Shown here: positions 14,257-22,378 of the stretch, in pieces
How the letters are laid out: each line of letters opens with the position of its first letter
Position numbering within the stretch: position 1 is the first letter of the stretch
Origin: Xanthomarina maritima
Lineage (GTDB): Bacteria; Bacteroidota; Bacteroidia; Flavobacteriales; Flavobacteriaceae
Assembly: GCF_008084905.1 (NCBI RefSeq)
Contig: NZ_VSFC01000062.1
Coordinates: 1-64,000, forward strand
Direction: 5' to 3'
Length of the DNA: 64,000 bases
Notes under the pieces: generated by a model
The model's database searches: none
What the model was told of the DNA's origin: nothing
What the model saw: only the letters and a program-made list of their open reading frames with translations
Program-made: the position numbers and the translations under genes

Positions 14257-17200
14257 TTATCTTTTCATTATTTTAAATGCAGATCTTTTCCCTTTATGCT
14301 GATAAATGAAAAATAATATTCCAGAACTAAAATCAGAGACATCAACTTGAATGTTTGATGATTCGTTTAATGAATAATCTTGTTCGAACAATATCCTTCC
14401 TGTTTGATCTAAAATCTGAAGGCTAGCTATCCCAGTTTTTTCAGCAATTTTAAGATTAACAAAATCACTAGTTGGATTTGGATACAATCTAATTTTCTCG
14501 TCATTTTGTTGGTTATTTAATTGAGTTTCTGTTATAGATTCAGTTGAAATTGAACGCAAAATCTCAGTACATGGATCAGCATTAGATCCATTTGCAGATT
14601 TAGAAGCACTGTTGCATCCCTGAGTGATAACTTCCCATTGTAATCTGCCACCATTTGTATAAATATCAAAAGTATGTGTGCCTGGTAAAAAGAGTTCAGG
14701 TGGAGATCCAATATATTGTGCATTCCCCTTTAATAGGTTATCAGGACCATTAGGAATATATATTGGCACATCTAACCTATTTGTATATTCAAAACGTAAT
14801 AGACTTACTACATTTGGGTTATTAGGTAATGTTGCTGGACTTTGACAAATACCTGAAGCAGTAATACGATCATTACATCCAACTAAAGGATTAACATACA
14901 ACAATCCGGGAGTTTGTGTTATTGTATAATTATCGTAACCCGATATACTGGTTAAATCTGCAATCACATCATATGTTCCACTTTCTAAATTACCTGTTTG
15001 TACGACACCGTTTTGATCTCTAACAATAAAATTAGTTACCGTTGGAGACATATCATTGCAGACAAGCCCATTTGCTATAATGTTAAAATTAGTAGGCACC
15101 ATATTTCCTTCAGAAATATAGGAAGACTCTACTTCTATAAAAAGATCAATATCTTCTATTGTTAAATTACCAGGCAGATAGGTTATATCGTAATTATTAT
15201 TTTCTAACTCTGGACTTACGGAAATATTCGTATCGTTAGTACATCCATCATTAGGAGTAAATATTAACTCTCCTAAAATTTCAGTCAATGATTCACCATA
15301 AGGTAATACCTCTTCACTTGCACTTATGCTAAAAGGTATATCTGTCTGGCCATATGTAATTGTTGCATCATCTACTGTAATGGTGAGTTCAAACGGATTG
15401 ACTGTTAGTTCACCCGAATTAATAAAAGAAATGTTGTAATTTGGTGAACTATTAGTTGCAGAAGCTTGAAAAGGATATGGACTTCCAGAAACGTCACATT
15501 GGGTACAGTCCACACTGTAAATTATTCCATTTGGGAAAACATCTTCTAATGTGTCACTATATTGTAACCCATCAATTATTCCAGTAGGAGTAATTTGCTC
15601 ATCTCCATAAGTTACTGTAGCATCTCCAGTAGTAACAGTTAGATTGGCTGGTAAAATCTCCAGAGATGTAGGTTGATACCTAATTTCAAAATTTGAATCT
15701 ATAACACCACCTGGAATGATATATTGCGTACCTGCATCAATTCCTGTTATGACATTAATTGGCTTGATTTCGATAGGTGTTTCACTATTTGAATCTTCAC
15801 CATTTAAAATAACAATGATGTTCTCGAAGGCATTCAAGATTGGAGTACTTTCACTGTTCACTAAAGGAACACCATTAACTAGAACCAACCCATTAACTAA
15901 TGAAACGCCATTGACTAACGAAACGCCATTGACTAACGAAACGCCATTGACCAATGAAATGCCATTGACAAGTGGAACACCATTAACTAGAGCTATACCA
16001 TTTACTAAGGATAGGCCATTAACTAATGCTATACCATTAGTAATATTAGAGTAATTACCATTGTCAATGGTATCTTCTGAAAATATATCAGCACCAAAGT
16101 TTACTAATTTTTCAACACCAGTTCCATTTACTAATGATAAGCCGTTTTGTTCAACGGTATCAGATTGATCCACTGTGCTCTGAGACACAAAAAAGGTTTT
16201 ATTAACTAAGGAAAGTCCGTTAATGGTTGGCTCGTTATTTACTAACGAAATCCCATTCACTAAAGAAAGCCCATTGACCAAGGAAAGACCATTGACCAAG
16301 GAAAGCGCATTTACATGATTTGTTGCAAAAGTATTAGCGACGTCTACATCTACTTCTAAATCCGTTTCGTCTGTATTACCATATACATAATCAAAACTTA
16401 TTTCTGGAAGAGCATCACCATACGTTATGTCTTCCAAAGTTTGTGGCTTAATAGTGACTTGCATTGGAGTTATATTAAGCACACCTTGTTCAATAATAAA
16501 ATTATATAATTCAGATAAGCCAATGTCTACATTTTCTAAATTCAATTCTATAGCATAGATGCCTACATTAGAGTTTGAAACTGCAGCAGTAGTTATTGAA
16601 ATGGATGGCAATAGGAGATCTATTTCTTCCTGTAAAAGAGAGGCTTCAGTGTCTCCTATACTTGTTGTAAAGGAAAAAAGAGGATTAGCTTCTCCATATC
16701 TTCTTGTTGCGTCATTAGGTTGTAAAATGACATCAGTAATAACTAGATCCTCAAAAGTTAAAACTTCTGAACTACCTCCATCAGTTCCATTTGTTAATGG
16801 CCCAGGTTCTGTATAAACATAAATAGGTGGATTTCCTATAAACTCTGGGATTGTAACTAACAACGTATTTTCATCAATAAATGTGGTTTCTAATGCCTCA
16901 CCACGAAATATAACCACAGATGATTCATCAAAAGAGTTTCCTTCAAGGATAAGCTCAAAGGCTATATCACCAGGCGAGTAAGTTGATGTGTCAAGATTTT
17001 CTAGATTGAACCTAATAAGATTAGGTGATGGATTTGAAAATACTCCGATGGAGTTATCTGCTGATAAGAAACCATAACCTGTTTTATTATCAAATCCTGG
17101 TAAATCCATATCTATGGCATTATTAGTAAGCAAACTACGAACACTTAAACTTGGATCTGAATTTGAAACATCAACTTCAAATTTTGTTTTAGCCTCAATA

Positions 17201-19437
17201 ATTAAGGCTGCTACACCAGCTGCATGTGGTGCTGATGCAGAAGTACCAAAGAAATTAGGTAAATTATTACCTTCAAAATCAGGAGCGCCTAAATTTACAG
17301 AAGTATCTCCTCCTGTTGGTGCCATTATATCTGGTTTGCTTCTTAAAAGTCCATTAGTTGTAGTTCCTCCTAGAGAAGATGATTGTTGAGCAGAAAGCAC
17401 ACCTCCATAACTTGGTGTATTATCATAACGGACTGCACCAACTGTAATTGCTCCATCTGCATTTGCATGACCAACAACAGTTGAGCTATTGGCGGCTGGA
17501 ACAGCAACAAAATTACCATCGTCTCCTGCTCTGAAAACAACATATTTGAACATTGGTGCTGGTCCAGATCCAGATGCTCTTTCAATAACAATATTGGTAG
17601 TTGTTGGATTAATAACAGTAAAAGGCATTATTTCTACAGGGTCTGCACCCATATTATTCCTATTAAATCCATATTGAATACTGTTATTATCACCAGCAAG
17701 ATAGATATCCATATCATTCATTGAACCTGTATTAGATCCAAAGGAATAAAAATCATCATCCCATTGAAGTACAACAATATATGAGCCAACATCTAAAGTA
17801 AGGTTTTGCAGAGAGTTGTTTCCTCCAAAATCATGTCGTAATGGGTTTGATGATGATGGAGTAAAAGTAGCTTGATAAGATCTTGATCCAAAATTACCAG
17901 CAGAAGTAAAATAGCTCACACCATTAGCTTCAGCTTCATTAATTGCATCAGCTACAATACCATCTCTAAAGAAAGGGGCTTTCATATAAGTAAGGTCGTC
18001 TACAATAACATCACAGTCCAATGCTACTAGTTCGGCAATTCCAGCTGCCATGTTTCCTTCAGAGATAAATCCAGTTCTAAAGAATAATTCTGCATCTGGA
18101 GCCACGTCATGTATAATCTGCATCATTGCTCGTCCTTCGTCACTTGCTAGACCAAAAGGATAGTCTTGTACAACAGTCACGGGATTTTCAGCTCCTGGAA
18201 GGTCTCCATTTGCAACATCTGTTTGAACAGCAGAACTTACACCTGTAATGACACCAGATTTTCTGTCGTAACTATCTGATATCACCCCAATTTTAATGCC
18301 TTCGCCACTTAAATTCCAACCTAATCTAGCAATATTGGACTTTTGAGCAGCATCACCTTGGCTTTCTATGAGTCCTGTATTTGGTATTGGAGGAGATACC
18401 TCATAAACTTGATTAATGATGTCTGATCTTGGATTAAGATCCTCTAAATTTGCTATAGGAAAAAACACAGTAATGACTCTTTCATCATCTAAAGGATCAT
18501 AAACATCAGAAATATAATCACTTGTATTTATTCCAAAGGAGTCACTCAAGAATGTTGATACAGCGTTGAATTGATTATTATAAGCAACAATTTCAATCAG
18601 AACCTCATCATTCTCATTAATAATATATATAAATTGATTAGTTGGTTCATTAGGATCATAATTACTAAATAATGAAGTCAAAGCTGAACCAATAATTTCA
18701 TTAACCTTCGAATTTGGTGGATAACCAGGTAGGATATCACAATTTATCAATATACATTCACACACTGCTGCTACTACCGCTTCAGTACTAGGAGATCCAG
18801 GAAGTCCGCTTCCACCCTGACTGTAAAAATAAATTACATTAGTATCCCAAGTACCAGAATTATTGATATTTCCATTTTCTGTCTTTATACTTCCAAGACC
18901 TGTTAAGGTACCACTATTTAAAAAATTGCCACTTGAAAGTCGAACACATGCGTTTGATAATACTAATTGAGTATCATTAACAATATTGCCATGTTTAACC
19001 ATCTGTGCATTGGTTAGTTGGATGGTGCCTTGATTTTTTAGCACTCCAGGACCAATTTCAATTTCACCTTGATCTACCACTAATAACCCTCCAGAGTTTA
19101 CATTGATGTTACTTGTAGTTGTAAATTTAGCATTATTGAGTACATGCAGTTCGGCATTGTTTTTCAACTTAATAGGATTACTAGAACTGTAAACAATATC
19201 ATGATTGATTATAATTGTTGTATTACCAACTTCGTAGTTAGGATATGGATTATTGTTACAGGGTCCACCTGAACAATTCCATGCATTAGGGTCTTCCCAA
19301 TTGTTGGACAAACCTGTTGTAGTATAATTTTGTCCAATTACTAAACTGGTAGTAAACAGATAAAATAAACTTAATAAAACAATGTTACTGATTCGTTTTG
19401 TGGTAAAGATATTACCACTTGCTTGTGTAGATTTCAT
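14257..19437 (-). CDS. giant T9SS-secreted S8/S53-like protease with MBG domains and LVNG repeats
   Basis: With the ATG at 19437 the protein has 1726 residues and starts with a signal peptide (cleavage about residue 36, VIGQ). A short strand-rich region and a linker lead to a protease domain (about 370-800). D388 (GVISDSYD) and S733 (GTSASAP) fit the S8/S53 clan, but the usual HGTxVA is replaced by DEGRAM with E434, as in S53-like enzymes. Several MBG (YGD) domains follow. An insertion of LVNG hexapeptides spans about 1040-1194, and the last 80 residues form a type A T9SS sorting domain (YPNPTSDF). It is exported to the cell surface or medium. A longer GTG start would lie in the hairpin at 19473-19489. 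Confidence 0.9.
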   Translation of the reverse strand: MKSTQASGNIFTTKRISNIVLLSLFYLFTTSLVIGQNYTTTGLSNNWEDPNAWNCSGGPCNNNPYPNYEVGNTTIIINHDIVYSSSNPIKLKNNAELHVLNNAKFTTTSNINVNSGGLLVVDQGEIEIGPGVLKNQGTIQLTNAQMVKHGNIVNDTQLVLSNACVRLSSGNFLNSGTLTGLGSIKTENGNINNSGTWDTNVIYFYSQGGSGLPGSPSTEAVVAAVCECILINCDILPGYPPNSKVNEIIGSALTSLFSNYDPNEPTNQFIYIINENDEVLIEIVAYNNQFNAVSTFLSDSFGINTSDYISDVYDPLDDERVITVFFPIANLEDLNPRSDIINQVYEVSPPIPNTGLIESQGDAAQKSNIARLGWNLSGEGIKIGVISDSYDRKSGVITGVSSAVQTDVANGDLPGAENPVTVVQDYPFGLASDEGRAMMQIIHDVAPDAELFFRTGFISEGNMAAGIAELVALDCDVIVDDLTYMKAPFFRDGIVADAINEAEANGVSYFTSAGNFGSRSYQATFTPSSSNPLRHDFGGNNSLQNLTLDVGSYIVVLQWDDDFYSFGSNTGSMNDMDIYLAGDNNSIQYGFNRNNMGADPVEIMPFTVINPTTTNIVIERASGSGPAPMFKYVVFRAGDDGNFVAVPAANSSTVVGHANADGAITVGAVRYDNTPSYGGVLSAQQSSSLGGTTTNGLLRSKPDIMAPTGGDTSVNLGAPDFEGNNLPNFFGTSASAPHAAGVAALIIEAKTKFEVDVSNSDPSLSVRSLLTNNAIDMDLPGFDNKTGYGFLSADNSIGVFSNPSPNLIRFNLENLDTSTYSPGDIAFELILEGNSFDESSVVIFRGEALETTFIDENTLLVTIPEFIGNPPIYVYTEPGPLTNGTDGGSSEVLTFEDLVITDVILQPNDATRRYGEANPLFSFTTSIGDTEASLLQEEIDLLLPSISITTAAVSNSNVGIYAIELNLENVDIGLSELYNFIIEQGVLNITPMQVTIKPQTLEDITYGDALPEISFDYVYGNTDETDLEVDVDVANTFATNHVNALSLVNGLSLVNGLSLVNGISLVNNEPTINGLSLVNKTFFVSQSTVDQSDTVEQNGLSLVNGTGVEKLVNFGADIFSEDTIDNGNYSNITNGIALVNGLSLVNGIALVNGVPLVNGISLVNGVSLVNGVSLVNGVSLVNGLVLVNGVPLVNSESTPILNAFENIIVILNGEDSNSETPIEIKPINVITGIDAGTQYIIPGGVIDSNFEIRYQPTSLEILPANLTVTTGDATVTYGDEQITPTGIIDGLQYSDTLEDVFPNGIIYSVDCTQCDVSGSPYPFQASATNSSPNYNISFINSGELTVNPFELTITVDDATITYGQTDIPFSISASEEVLPYGESLTEILGELIFTPNDGCTNDTNISVSPELENNNYDITYLPGNLTIEDIDLFIEVESSYISEGNMVPTNFNIIANGLVCNDMSPTVTNFIVRDQNGVVQTGNLESGTYDVIADLTSISGYDNYTITQTPGLLYVNPLVGCNDRITASGICQSPATLPNNPNVVSLLRFEYTNRLDVPIYIPNGPDNLLKGNAQYIGSPPELFLPGTHTFDIYTNGGRLQWEVITQGCNSASKSANGSNADPCTEILRSISTESITETQLNNQQNDEKIRLYPNPTSDFVNLKIAEKTGIASLQILDQTGRILFEQDYSLNESSNIQVDVSDFSSGILFFIYQHKGKRSAFKIMKR
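15853..16318 (-). repeat. 18-bp coding repeats encoding (L/I/V)SLVNG hexapeptides
   Basis: About 16 copies of an 18-bp unit encode variants of LSLVNG. One cluster of four (near 16236-16318) is followed by two isolated copies near 16210 and 16130. A block of ten then covers about 15853-16047, with units ISLVNG, VSLVNG, IALVNG, VPLVNG and LVLVNG. Adjacent copies are nearly identical at DNA level, which suggests recent slippage or recombination. Confidence 0.9.
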
Positions 19438-19472
19438 ATTACTCAACTTAAAATAACCACATAAGTTATACA

Positions 19473-19489
19473 CCAACGATTATCGTTGG
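19473..19489. repeat. palindrome upstream of the giant protease
   Basis: CCAACGA-TTA-TCGTTGG is a perfect inverted repeat with 7-bp arms. It lies 36 bases upstream of the chosen ATG, so it could be an operator or a 5' UTR hairpin. Confidence 0.6.
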
Positions 19490-19716: not shown

Positions 19717-20304
19717 TTATTTTGTCTTTAGTTCTTTTAGTTTTTTCAATTTTAATTTTCGTCGATTCCATTTCGCAAATAGCGTGTGATACTTGTGATT
19801 TTCAAGAAACTTAATTTGCAAATCTAACCACTCGCGTTCTGTTTTAATAACTCCAAAATAGAGAAACTCTTGATGCAGGTTTTCACTAAGCTTATCATAA
19901 TCATTTCTTCCTAAATAGTCTAAATCGGCATCAGCTAAGATCTTATCATAAAAAGTTTTTGGTTGCTGTGGGATTTTTGTAGCTCTAATCATCCCAGATA
20001 CAATGTCTATTTCTTCTTGAGTAAGAATAGGTCTGAGTTTTGGTTCTATTAACGTGATGCTACGTTCTTCATGATCAATAGGTGAAACTGTATAACCAAA
20101 ATCATGGCAAATAGCAGCAATTCTAATCAGTTTAGCCATATCATCATCTATCTTATATAGCTTAATATAATTATTACACACATTGGCTACATCAATAATA
20201 TGATTATAAGAATGATAGCTAAGATATGGAGCTAGTTTCCTTTTTAATTCATCTAGAATTTGGAAACAGATATCTGGATATGTCTTTTCGTTATCAAGAG
20301 TCAT
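19717..20304 (-). CDS. HD-domain phosphohydrolase
   Basis: The 195-residue protein shows the HD metal-binding pattern: H35 (YHSYNHIIDVAN), H67-D68 (AAICHDFGY) and a later aspartate in ILADADLDYLG. HD proteins hydrolyse phosphate esters, nucleotides or cyclic nucleotides. The substrate here is not evident. It is followed at a distance by the adenylate cyclase gene on the same strand (134 bases upstream), so a phosphodiesterase role is possible but purely inferential. Confidence 0.85.
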   Translation of the reverse strand: MTLDNEKTYPDICFQILDELKRKLAPYLSYHSYNHIIDVANVCNNYIKLYKIDDDMAKLIRIAAICHDFGYTVSPIDHEERSITLIEPKLRPILTQEEIDIVSGMIRATKIPQQPKTFYDKILADADLDYLGRNDYDKLSENLHQEFLYFGVIKTEREWLDLQIKFLENHKYHTLFAKWNRRKLKLKKLKELKTK

Positions 20305-20437: not shown

Positions 20438-22378
20438 CTATTTTTTTTCTTCAGCATAGTACATATTAAGGAATTGTTCGTTTTTTGCTTTAATTTTTCC
20501 TCTATAGGTAAAATCATATTTGTCCTTTAAATGTTGATAGGTGTTTTCGGAAACATTAATTTTTCCTGGTACCGAATTATTCTCCATGCGAGCTGCTATA
20601 TTAACTGTACTTCCCCAAATATCGTACTGAAATTTTTTGATGCCAACTACTCCAGCTATTACAGGACCAGTGTTGATACCAATACGAACCTCAAATGGAT
20701 ATATTCCTTCTGGTGGATTATTTTTTGTATCCTTTACAAATTCTAATATTTCTAAAGCTGCTAAAAAAGCATTCTCTGCATGCGTTTTATTTTCAGTAGG
20801 AAGTCCTCCAGCACACATATATGCATCTCCAATGGTCTTGATTTTCTCTAAACTATGTTTTTCTGTAATAATATCGAATTTCTTGAAAAAATAATCCAAA
20901 CTTTTAACAAGATCCTCAGCTGGAATTTCTTCTGCAACTAAAGAGAATTGCTTAAAATCTGTGAAAAGTACAGATACTTCTTTAAAATACTTAGCTTTAA
21001 TAAATCCTTGTTCTTTTAATTCTTCTGCTGTTTCTTTAGGTAGAATGTTTAATAGAATACTTTCACTTTTATTACGTTCTTTTGCTAAAATTGCATTAGA
21101 CTTCTGTATATATCTGTATCGAAAATAAGAACCTCCTACTAGTGCTAAAAGTAGGATTGCAAGAGCATAAAGCAATCTTTTTGAAGCAGTGCTACGTTCA
21201 ATTTGAGTTTGCTTAAGCTCATTATCAACATTGAGAAGTTTTATTTCGCGATCTTTATTTTCTAGATCATATTGAAATCGCATTTTGCTTATAGATTCAT
21301 CATATGTCGCATTCCTAATGGTATCACTTATGGCAGTAAAAAGTTGTTGATAGCCATAAGCATTTTTATAATCATTCATGCCAGAATAGGCTTTGGATAG
21401 TCCTTCGTAAGCGTCTTTTTTATCTCGATAAACTCCTGTTATCTCTGTTAATTTAAGGCCTTCCTTAAAATTATCGACAGCATCCAAGTACTCCTTTTGT
21501 TCATTAAGAAGTTCTCCCAAGCTAATAAGAGCTTTAGTTTTTTCTAATTTAGCATCATTGATGTCTGCTTCTTCAATAGCTTTTAATTGATATTCTTTTG
21601 CTAGCTCATACTGGTTTAAGTCTTTATAAGCCTCTCCTATATAATTATAAGTATGAGACACACTACTTCCTGCTTTTGAATACGCTTCTAAGGCATCATT
21701 AAGAAGTGGCAATGCTGCTTGAGGGTTGCCATTCATTAAGTATAATTCAGCCATATTAACAGCCACAAAACCAACACCTTCGTCATAACCAATATTGCTA
21801 AATATTATCTTAGATTTATTGTAGGATTCAATCGCTTCGTTGTGGGTTTTTTCTTCATTAGAATATACAGCTCCCATATTTAAATAAACCGTTCCCATTC
21901 TAAGAGAATCTTGAATCTTTTCTGCAATTTTAACAGATGTTATAAAATAATCTAAAGCTTTAGGATCATTTCCCTTAGTTTGATAAACAGCGCCAATATT
22001 GCTTAGCAAATTACTTACTCCTGCTTCATCGTTGAGTTCTTTAAAAATGGCTAAGGAGATTTCCCAATGATTGAGAACATCAACAAACTCTCCCTTGGAA
22101 TAATATGCAAGTCCCAAGTTTTTATTAGCGTAAGCTAGCCCTTTCTTGAAATTAATTTCAGTAGCTAGATCTATTGCTTTGCTAGAATATACTATGGATG
22201 AGTCTGGTTGTGTTCTATAAAGTTGAAAAGAGATATCTAGTAACGTGTTGACTTTTGTACTATCATCAGCTTGTTCAGCAATAAGTTGCTTAAGATTTTC
22301 AATACTTTGGTCGCTTTGACCAAAAGAATTTAGCACAAAACAAATAAAAAAGATAAAATGAAGGGGATTTCGATTCAT
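20438..22378 (-). CDS. TPR-containing membrane adenylate cyclase (class III)
   Basis: The 646-residue protein has a signal peptide (cleavage about residue 20), about seven TPR repeats (60-345) predicted to be periplasmic, a short coiled coil (365-398), one membrane helix (401-418) and a cytoplasmic class III cyclase domain (465-640). Metal ligands D474 and D518, purine-selecting K514 and D586, and transition-state N593 and R597 are all present. Lysine plus aspartate at the purine sites favours ATP over GTP. It thus looks like an active receptor-type enzyme making cAMP in response to an unknown periplasmic signal. Confidence 0.92.
   Translation of the reverse strand: MNRNPLHFIFFICFVLNSFGQSDQSIENLKQLIAEQADDSTKVNTLLDISFQLYRTQPDSSIVYSSKAIDLATEINFKKGLAYANKNLGLAYYSKGEFVDVLNHWEISLAIFKELNDEAGVSNLLSNIGAVYQTKGNDPKALDYFITSVKIAEKIQDSLRMGTVYLNMGAVYSNEEKTHNEAIESYNKSKIIFSNIGYDEGVGFVAVNMAELYLMNGNPQAALPLLNDALEAYSKAGSSVSHTYNYIGEAYKDLNQYELAKEYQLKAIEEADINDAKLEKTKALISLGELLNEQKEYLDAVDNFKEGLKLTEITGVYRDKKDAYEGLSKAYSGMNDYKNAYGYQQLFTAISDTIRNATYDESISKMRFQYDLENKDREIKLLNVDNELKQTQIERSTASKRLLYALAILLLALVGGSYFRYRYIQKSNAILAKERNKSESILLNILPKETAEELKEQGFIKAKYFKEVSVLFTDFKQFSLVAEEIPAEDLVKSLDYFFKKFDIITEKHSLEKIKTIGDAYMCAGGLPTENKTHAENAFLAALEILEFVKDTKNNPPEGIYPFEVRIGINTGPVIAGVVGIKKFQYDIWGSTVNIAARMENNSVPGKINVSENTYQHLKDKYDFTYRGKIKAKNEQFLNMYYAEEKK

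Follow-up and report, generated by a model that had tools for sequence, protein, structure and literature searches.

Why should one domain of a large bacterial protein hold many copies of a six-residue peptide, and does anything encoded nearby correspond to those copies? The question is raised by a locus of Xanthomarina maritima, a member of the Flavobacteriaceae, which lies in a stretch of 64,000 nucleotides that is called the window here. The repeats are encoded by a minus-strand gene (14257..19476) with a listed TTG start and a possible alternative ATG at 19437. According to its ORF, Pfam and TIGR04183, the product of 1739 aa is a subtilase (S8)-like, MBG and T9SS sorting-domain protein, with Peptidase_S8 at residues 646-802, three MBG_2 stretches and Por_Secre_tail at residues 1664-1732. 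On the minus strand, the C-terminal part of the S8-like domain corresponds to 17071..17541 (PF00082, E=1.5e-18) and the T9SS C-terminal sorting domain, recognized by both Pfam and TIGR04183, to 14260..14487. Across the S8 domain (17008-18369), a DEGRAM block is invariant near the expected His, where the PDB alignment is ambiguous; in 21 sequences neither the GTSA block nor a G-N pair varies, and the Asp motif SDS becomes SNS (Asn for Asp) in some homologues. Judging by these motifs, the subtilase-like domain may be a non-canonical or inactive protease.

The repeats are located in a split domain. Three uninterrupted MBG_2 domains (PF18676; 16480-16722, 15403-15642 and 15160-15387, thus within 15160..16722 of the minus strand) pass the curated profile cut-off, account for every MBG_2 match of the genome at E<=0.001, and flank an MBG domain whose first half occupies residues 1004-1053 (16318..16467, minus strand; model strands 2-8 and 25-29) and whose second half occupies residues 1225-1277 (15646..15804, minus strand; model strands 246-251, 260-264 and 267-272). 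An earlier note on this DNA had proposed that the repeats interrupt an MBG domain, and the homologues agree: their YGD half before the insert and their (V/L)(I/L)TG..AG half after it can be aligned as a single MBG-type domain. The AlphaFold model has strands on either side of the insert, with a block-mean pLDDT of 52-67 in these flanks. A Pfam scan of either half alone gave no match.

Between the halves, 16 hexads of the form x[LIVFT][SAPV]LVN span residues 1057-1207 (15856-16308, minus strand), in agreement with the roughly sixteen LVNG-type units counted earlier. The strict pattern [LIV]SLVNG occurs nine times, far above the shuffled window tracts, which contain a mean of 0.10 and a maximum of 2 such units in 10,000 trials. 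The span of the supposed single tract of about 155 residues stands, but its continuity does not, since the hexads form blocks of 4, 1, 1 and 10 with non-repeat spacers between them. Read along the protein, all on the minus strand, these are block 1 with four hexads (residues 1057-1080, 16237..16308; pattern match and comparison with a congener), an isolated GLSLVN (residues 1087-1092, 16201..16218), the spacer KTFFVSQSTVDQSDTVEQN (16144..16200), a further isolated GLSLVN (residues 1112-1117, 16126..16143), a spacer with the motif EKLVNFGADIFS (16036..16125) and block 3 with ten hexads (residues 1148-1207, 15856..16035; pattern match and DNA-level repeat search). The isolated hexads come from pattern matching, and both spacers come from alignments in which the homologues are similar. 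Elsewhere in the window, at 75-128, there is a tandem array of an 11-bp unit, ACCCTATGGAT, in 4.9 copies.

What kind of sequence is this? The earlier statement that no described domain fits it holds, as Pfam, NCBIfam and PDB searches returned nothing convincing. The Pfam family Pam3_gp18 (cyanophage baseplate plug) exceeds its cut-off over 15805-16317 with E=2.9e-6; its best stretch covers only 23 residues, and as an identity for the tract it was set aside as probably a match of repeat composition. In the PDB, the profile matched only copalyl diphosphate synthase (E=0.0013); the alignment falls on an Asn-Gly-rich stretch, and this match was likewise rejected. MBG domains have a GLVNGD-like motif, which was considered as an idea for the origin of the tract.

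The six-residue period had suggested a beta-helix or another solenoid. No solenoid family, left-handed beta-helix hexapeptide or other, matched in Pfam and NCBIfam, the PDB offered no convincing solved relative, and no confident model emerged; what speaks for the suggestion is a short strand on the block 3 hexads, seen with AlphaFold2 in single-sequence mode at pLDDT 41-49. For perfect repeats, AlphaFold2 reportedly predicts beta-solenoids too often (PMC11795689). The same strand would suit an account in which the repeats are stacking strands of a surface beta-solenoid or beta-sheet module: identical strands would be needed to stack, and a change in one would favour the same change in all, producing differences between lineages. 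Homotypic (kin-selective) adhesion is a variant of this account. It is consistent with the invariant columns of the LVN-like group, which include Asn, mostly followed by Gly, every six residues, and with the occurrence of MBG_2 in surface proteins such as CdrA (PMC8201768). We regard it as unlikely, given that with an alignment the block-mean pLDDT of the insert is 21-39, that unit length among homologues varies from 5 to 8, and that it leaves unexplained the covariation and the paired swap with a TPR sensor presented below.

The earlier note had also taken the repeats for near-identical 18-bp units that had recently changed in number, and neither part of that claim is supported. Units of the window differ from one another at a mean of 5.2 of 18 bases; when each is compared with its positional orthologue in the congener Xanthomarina spongicola (L051), the mean is 4.3 of 18, and the positional signal is significant (p=0.00025, permutation of positions). 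Over a 274-aa segment the two species show no indel, and of the codons at conserved residues 50% have changed within the insert and 43% outside it in the flanks. Seven aligned proteins, the window's included, share the arrangement of 4, 1, 1 and 10 hexads; one extra unit is present in L046 and in L048, and several in Robiginitalea-type homologues. Family-wide, pairs of identical 6-mers differ silently at a median of 0.82 of the random-codon expectation (IQR 0.75-0.93, range 0.54-1.14), where the expectation draws codons at random from the rest of the gene. This ratio was scored in 61 of 65 genes; L094, L105, L181 and L039 have too few exact copies, and ten genes (L202-L211) lie outside the set. 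Identical peptides written in near-random codons indicate that the tract is no recent microsatellite, and that the peptide is kept while its codons drift. An 18-bp repeat of no particular function that had recently slipped or expanded would account for tandem repeats being detectable at the DNA level and for two adjacent window units being identical in DNA. At the level of species, recent slippage is contradicted by the equal unit number and unbroken alignment of the congener, by codon change like that of the flanks and by near-random codons throughout the family; with conserved spacers in addition, we consider this explanation to be hardly credible.

Beyond the window, the same insertion site turned out to hold a family of peptides. 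The LVNG tract matched in 13 of 397 Flavobacteriaceae genomes (one of these matches, L043, sits at a contig edge and was left out), and the insert profile in 6 of 395 sampled genomes of the phylum (E<=1e-5). The N-terminal 1003 residues, that is, the S8 part, matched in 22 of the 397. Twelve of these 22 genomes, the window's included, carry LVN-like hexads (such as GLSLVN, GFSFVN, GLSVIN and GFSLRN, with a degenerate tract in L039); the other 10 carry different repeated peptides in the same insertion site, among them NKFQAVV, NKFRAVV, NRFKAVV, NRFRTVL, NGFKALV, NRARALV, NAFKGLA and NGQALGII, with L094 variable. In two other families the S8 profile has relatives in 19 of 150 genomes and in 17 of 147, and the regions read there add GYALVN x16, NGQTLTLS, NGQLQALV, NGQAVTIV, NGVPVAIV, GKAIVA, SKAVAN, IKSVVN, LALVDG x30 and others; in those families the regions of 13 of 23 and 14 of 20 places were fetched, and in a further search 7 of 8. 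The following were left out: L063 (a short cyanobacterial match), L043, L107 (a weak match) and L173 (an interrupted frame, dropped from all counts). Duplicate regions were counted once (L032-L036, L038 and L040 repeat L051, L049, L050, L044, L045, L052 and L058).

These peptides have 5-8 residues, are near-uniform within a protein and differ between lineages, so that each can be called private to its lineage. In one genus the gene is present in 12 of 15 species with three peptide types (SLRGIV; GVPF(I/V)N; GVVRAN/GTVRSN/GGVTRAN), and six of the species all have LRGIVS x7, with gene identity between them falling to about 62% or less at the extreme. The tree of the S8 domains comprised 72 of them, and its bootstrap had not settled. 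L055, L057 and L174 hold 30-33 exact 6-mer copies in proteins of 3200-4000 aa, with imperfect hexads in the spacers. At L039, residues 1060-1240 form a degenerate tract in which Asn at period six is kept and the other positions vary freely; it might be a specificity cassette in decay. A search for a second protein bearing the same private peptide, made in the rest of the window's genome (next match E=0.14) and in six KF-type genomes (next match E=0.88), found none.

Copies within one protein can change together. In the KF clade (six species, seven copies at fixed places) the mismatch is 0.007 within a protein and 0.252 between orthologous copies; in the xF clade (eight species, five copies) the corresponding values are 0.057 and 0.335. 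In L099, Arg replaces the Gln of its relatives in six of seven copies, through four different Arg codons. The LVN clade (seven proteins, window included) gives 0.192 within a protein against 0.177 for orthologues, which indicates that copies drift independently there, mainly among L, I, V and F. Coordinated change in every clade is thus ruled out by the window's own clade, which shows the private-peptide pattern weakly.

The neighbour that accompanies these peptides is a sensor gene. In the window it lies on the minus strand at 20438..22378 and encodes 646 aa that Pfam and hydrophobicity resolve into an N-terminal signal-like stretch, TPR repeats (TPR_12, E=6.5e-29), a membrane-helix-like stretch near residue 400 and a class III nucleotidyl cyclase (Guanylate_cyc, E=2e-52). 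The TPR sensor region covers about residues 30-380 (21239..22291, minus strand) and, in sequence comparisons, varies with the private peptide among homologues; the cyclase catalytic domain covers residues 461-641 (20456..20998, minus strand). Between the sensor and the private-peptide gene stands a gene for an HD-domain protein of 195 aa (19717..20304, minus strand; Pfam PF01966, E=3.6e-5). When eight neighbours of the window gene were traced at 22 loci, which include both L032 and L051 from one genome, a relative of the cyclase gene was present at 21 and of the HD gene at 17, while the other six had relatives only in that congener.

Apart from the window, 66 of 70 private-peptide loci have a relative of the sensor, always at most 1.8 kb from the private-peptide ORF; 47 of the 66 are within 400 bp and 62 are on the same strand. 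None was found in the DNA examined at L059, L170, L183 and L184; at L175 only the cyclase part was seen, and a few other sensors are cut by contig ends. The twenty upstream flanks contained one cyclase match (L229, the divergent sensor of L171) and one HD match (L232). L170 and L171 are paralogues in one genome (G823) with the peptides GLALVN and GIALVN, and in the DNA examined only L171 has a TPR neighbour, on the opposite strand. TPR_12 and other TPR families were found in all eight sensors scanned with Pfam, joined to different outputs: Guanylate_cyc in the window, L163 and L188, HATPase in L178, L180, L182 and L186, and SpoIIE in L061. Most other sensors align with the window cyclase over its catalytic part. 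In all 63 sensors of at least 600 aa the N-terminus is hydrophobic and a further hydrophobic stretch lies inside the protein (median position 405), a profile from which export and a membrane-spanning topology are predicted.

Do peptide and sensor vary together? In the xF/KF clade (n=14), peptide distance correlates with TPR distance after control for the S8 and catalytic domains (partial Mantel r=0.49, p=0.0006), and in the LVN clade (n=19) it does so at r=0.34, p=0.039, phylogeny being incompletely removed in both cases. With five other regions controlled, the value in the xF/KF clade is again r=0.49 (p=0.001). The catalytic domain shows no significant correlation with the peptide given S8 (0.14 in xF/KF, 0.05 in LVN). 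Host region M does when S8 alone is controlled (r=0.27, p=0.021), and regions N and C do not; once S8, the catalytic domain and TPR are controlled, none of the three correlates. Among 68 close pairs (S8 identity >=0.70), the mean deficit of TPR relative to S8 identity is 0.193 where the peptide changed and 0.163 where it changed little; the rank correlation of this deficit with peptide distance is 0.44, and the S8-catalytic deficit also correlates (0.29, p=0.018). Peptide and sensor covary beyond the rest of the locus, as is expected of a pherotype locus, and an island pattern is seen in one close pair.

Individual pairs do not all follow this trend. L203 and L205, a same-peptide control, share 0.97 of TPR and 0.99 of S8 residues, but L100 and L164 have the same peptide with TPR at 0.72 against S8 at 0.85, and the window and L048 have the same consensus with TPR at 0.47 against 0.74. 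Such rapid TPR divergence at an unchanged peptide would be expected if the locus were a signalling unit whose TPR domain senses some other cue, such as stress on T9SS export or the S8/MBG part itself, with insert and TPR evolving fast independently of each other. This explanation seems quite unlikely to us: the host regions N, M and C do not track the peptide after control for S8, catalytic domain and TPR, while the TPR domain does, and insert and TPR stand out from everything else in the pair L163/L164.

The two members of that pair belong to one genus, and their genes show 96% identity and a codon change of 8%. Over about 6.6 kb, comprising the gene and the cyclase, the insert and the TPR region differ at 19.5% and 27.2% of nucleotides, respectively, and the remainder at 2.6%; the compared flanks show 0-9%. 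Within the TPR region the identity is 68%, and 36% of the codons for conserved residues have changed; in the rest of the cyclase, 359 of 360 residues are identical and 6% of codons changed. One locus carries KFQAVVN x7 and the other KFQALVS x7. The elevated silent change of the two islands suggests that they were imported from a diverged donor rather than shaped by selection alone. The paired swap was seen in this close pair only. Its cassette-like peak of divergence, together with the strong divergence between lineages, might also recall an arms race, in which the insert would be a surface target of a phage, a predator or a host factor under diversifying selection and the sensor would adapt for other reasons. 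LRGIVS x7, kept across six species, is unlike escape variation, the copies within a KF-clade protein are alike, and the linkage of the TPR sensor would have no explanation; an arms race is therefore very improbable.

We lean towards the reading that the repeats are a multi-copy, lineage-private peptide ligand and the linked TPR sensor its receptor, the locus working like a pherotype locus. On this proposal, an exported T9SS protein would carry the private peptide in many copies, and it would be received by the adjoining sensor, whose TPR domain would be exported and joined through a membrane helix to an output in the cytoplasm. The output would usually be a class III nucleotidyl cyclase, with a histidine kinase or a SpoIIE phosphatase in some lineages. 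By analogy with known systems, the TPR domain may bind the peptide, which may be cut free or presented in place, and binding may be passed on as a cyclic nucleotide. The copies would be held alike as peptide while their codons drift because every copy has to match one receptor, and in a shift of specificity the copies and the TPR domain would shift together or be imported together. A ligand exported to the surface and a receptor in the periplasm need a step at which they meet, which counts against the ligand-receptor proposal; the meeting place could be the periplasm during export, or ligand could re-enter. Signalling between cells or among kin is the presumed purpose.

More tentatively, the family may represent a form of private peptide signalling in Bacteroidota that is unrelated to known families, with T9SS carriers, linked exported TPR receptors, interchangeable cyclase, histidine kinase and SpoIIE outputs, and pherotype-like co-diversification and recombination. 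Such a system was not found described in the open PMC literature as judged by titles and abstract openings, a scope outside which most subscription papers and all of bioRxiv lie. If the ligand-receptor proposal is true, a peptide-receptor language exists in another phylum with a ligand that can be read from the genome, because at those 66 of 70 other loci the gene beside that of the sensor encodes several copies of the candidate ligand. One could then use short synthetic peptides directly to deorphan receptors and to test for kin-specific signalling in Bacteroidota. Repeats kept as peptide and near random in codons are moreover a signature usable to find other multi-copy ligands. None of this is visible from the window alone, where neither the different private peptides of homologues nor a TPR sensor gene varying with them can be seen.

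How does the locus compare with systems already described? The RRNPP regulators (Rgg, Rap, NprR, PlcR, PrgX) bind unmodified secreted peptides of fewer than 10 residues through TPR domains (PMC4873490), and some RRNPPA propeptides are reported to carry several putative pheromones (PMC11343458). The present locus is similar in having a TPR domain in the sensor and a short peptide as candidate ligand, known here from sequence. It differs from the cytoplasmic receptors of Firmicutes described for RRNPP (PMC4873490) in belonging to Bacteroidota, in having a membrane helix and a TPR domain that is predicted to be exported, and in its cyclase, kinase or phosphatase outputs. The carrier also differs: it is about 1500-4000 aa long and repeats a 6-mer exactly, in up to 33 copies. 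All 63 sensors of at least 600 aa have a hydrophobicity profile at odds with a cytoplasmic receptor, and the locus was therefore not filed as RRNPP.

In the pherotype loci comQXP of Bacillus and agr of Staphylococcus, the signal and the sensor half of the receptor vary together as islands. The present locus is like them in that adjacent ligand and sensor genes vary together inside a conserved locus, and unlike them in that a large T9SS protein would carry the signal as a repeated peptide; we know of no relation between it and comQXP or agr. Tandem peptide copies in one precursor, with a lineage-specific sequence, are also found in map2, the precursor of the fungal mating pheromone P-factor (PMC6342294). 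The tandem lineage-specific copies are shared with our family, but the fungal system is eukaryotic and its receptor is a GPCR. To our knowledge, fungal pheromone precursors do not combine the peptide with an MBG or subtilase-like domain in one chain.

Two further comparisons concern the repeats themselves. In the rotifer mate recognition protein MMR-B, which has a recognition function, repeats are more alike within a gene than between lineages (PMC3495898); synonymous differences are reported to be low there and concerted evolution was inferred, in contrast to the near-random silent sites found here. Periscope proteins, including CdrA, are MBG_2-bearing surface proteins with whole-domain repeats of variable number (PMC8201768), unlike the short peptides embedded here in one split domain. 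As a kind, the locus resembles known peptide-receptor systems while standing outside RRNPP.
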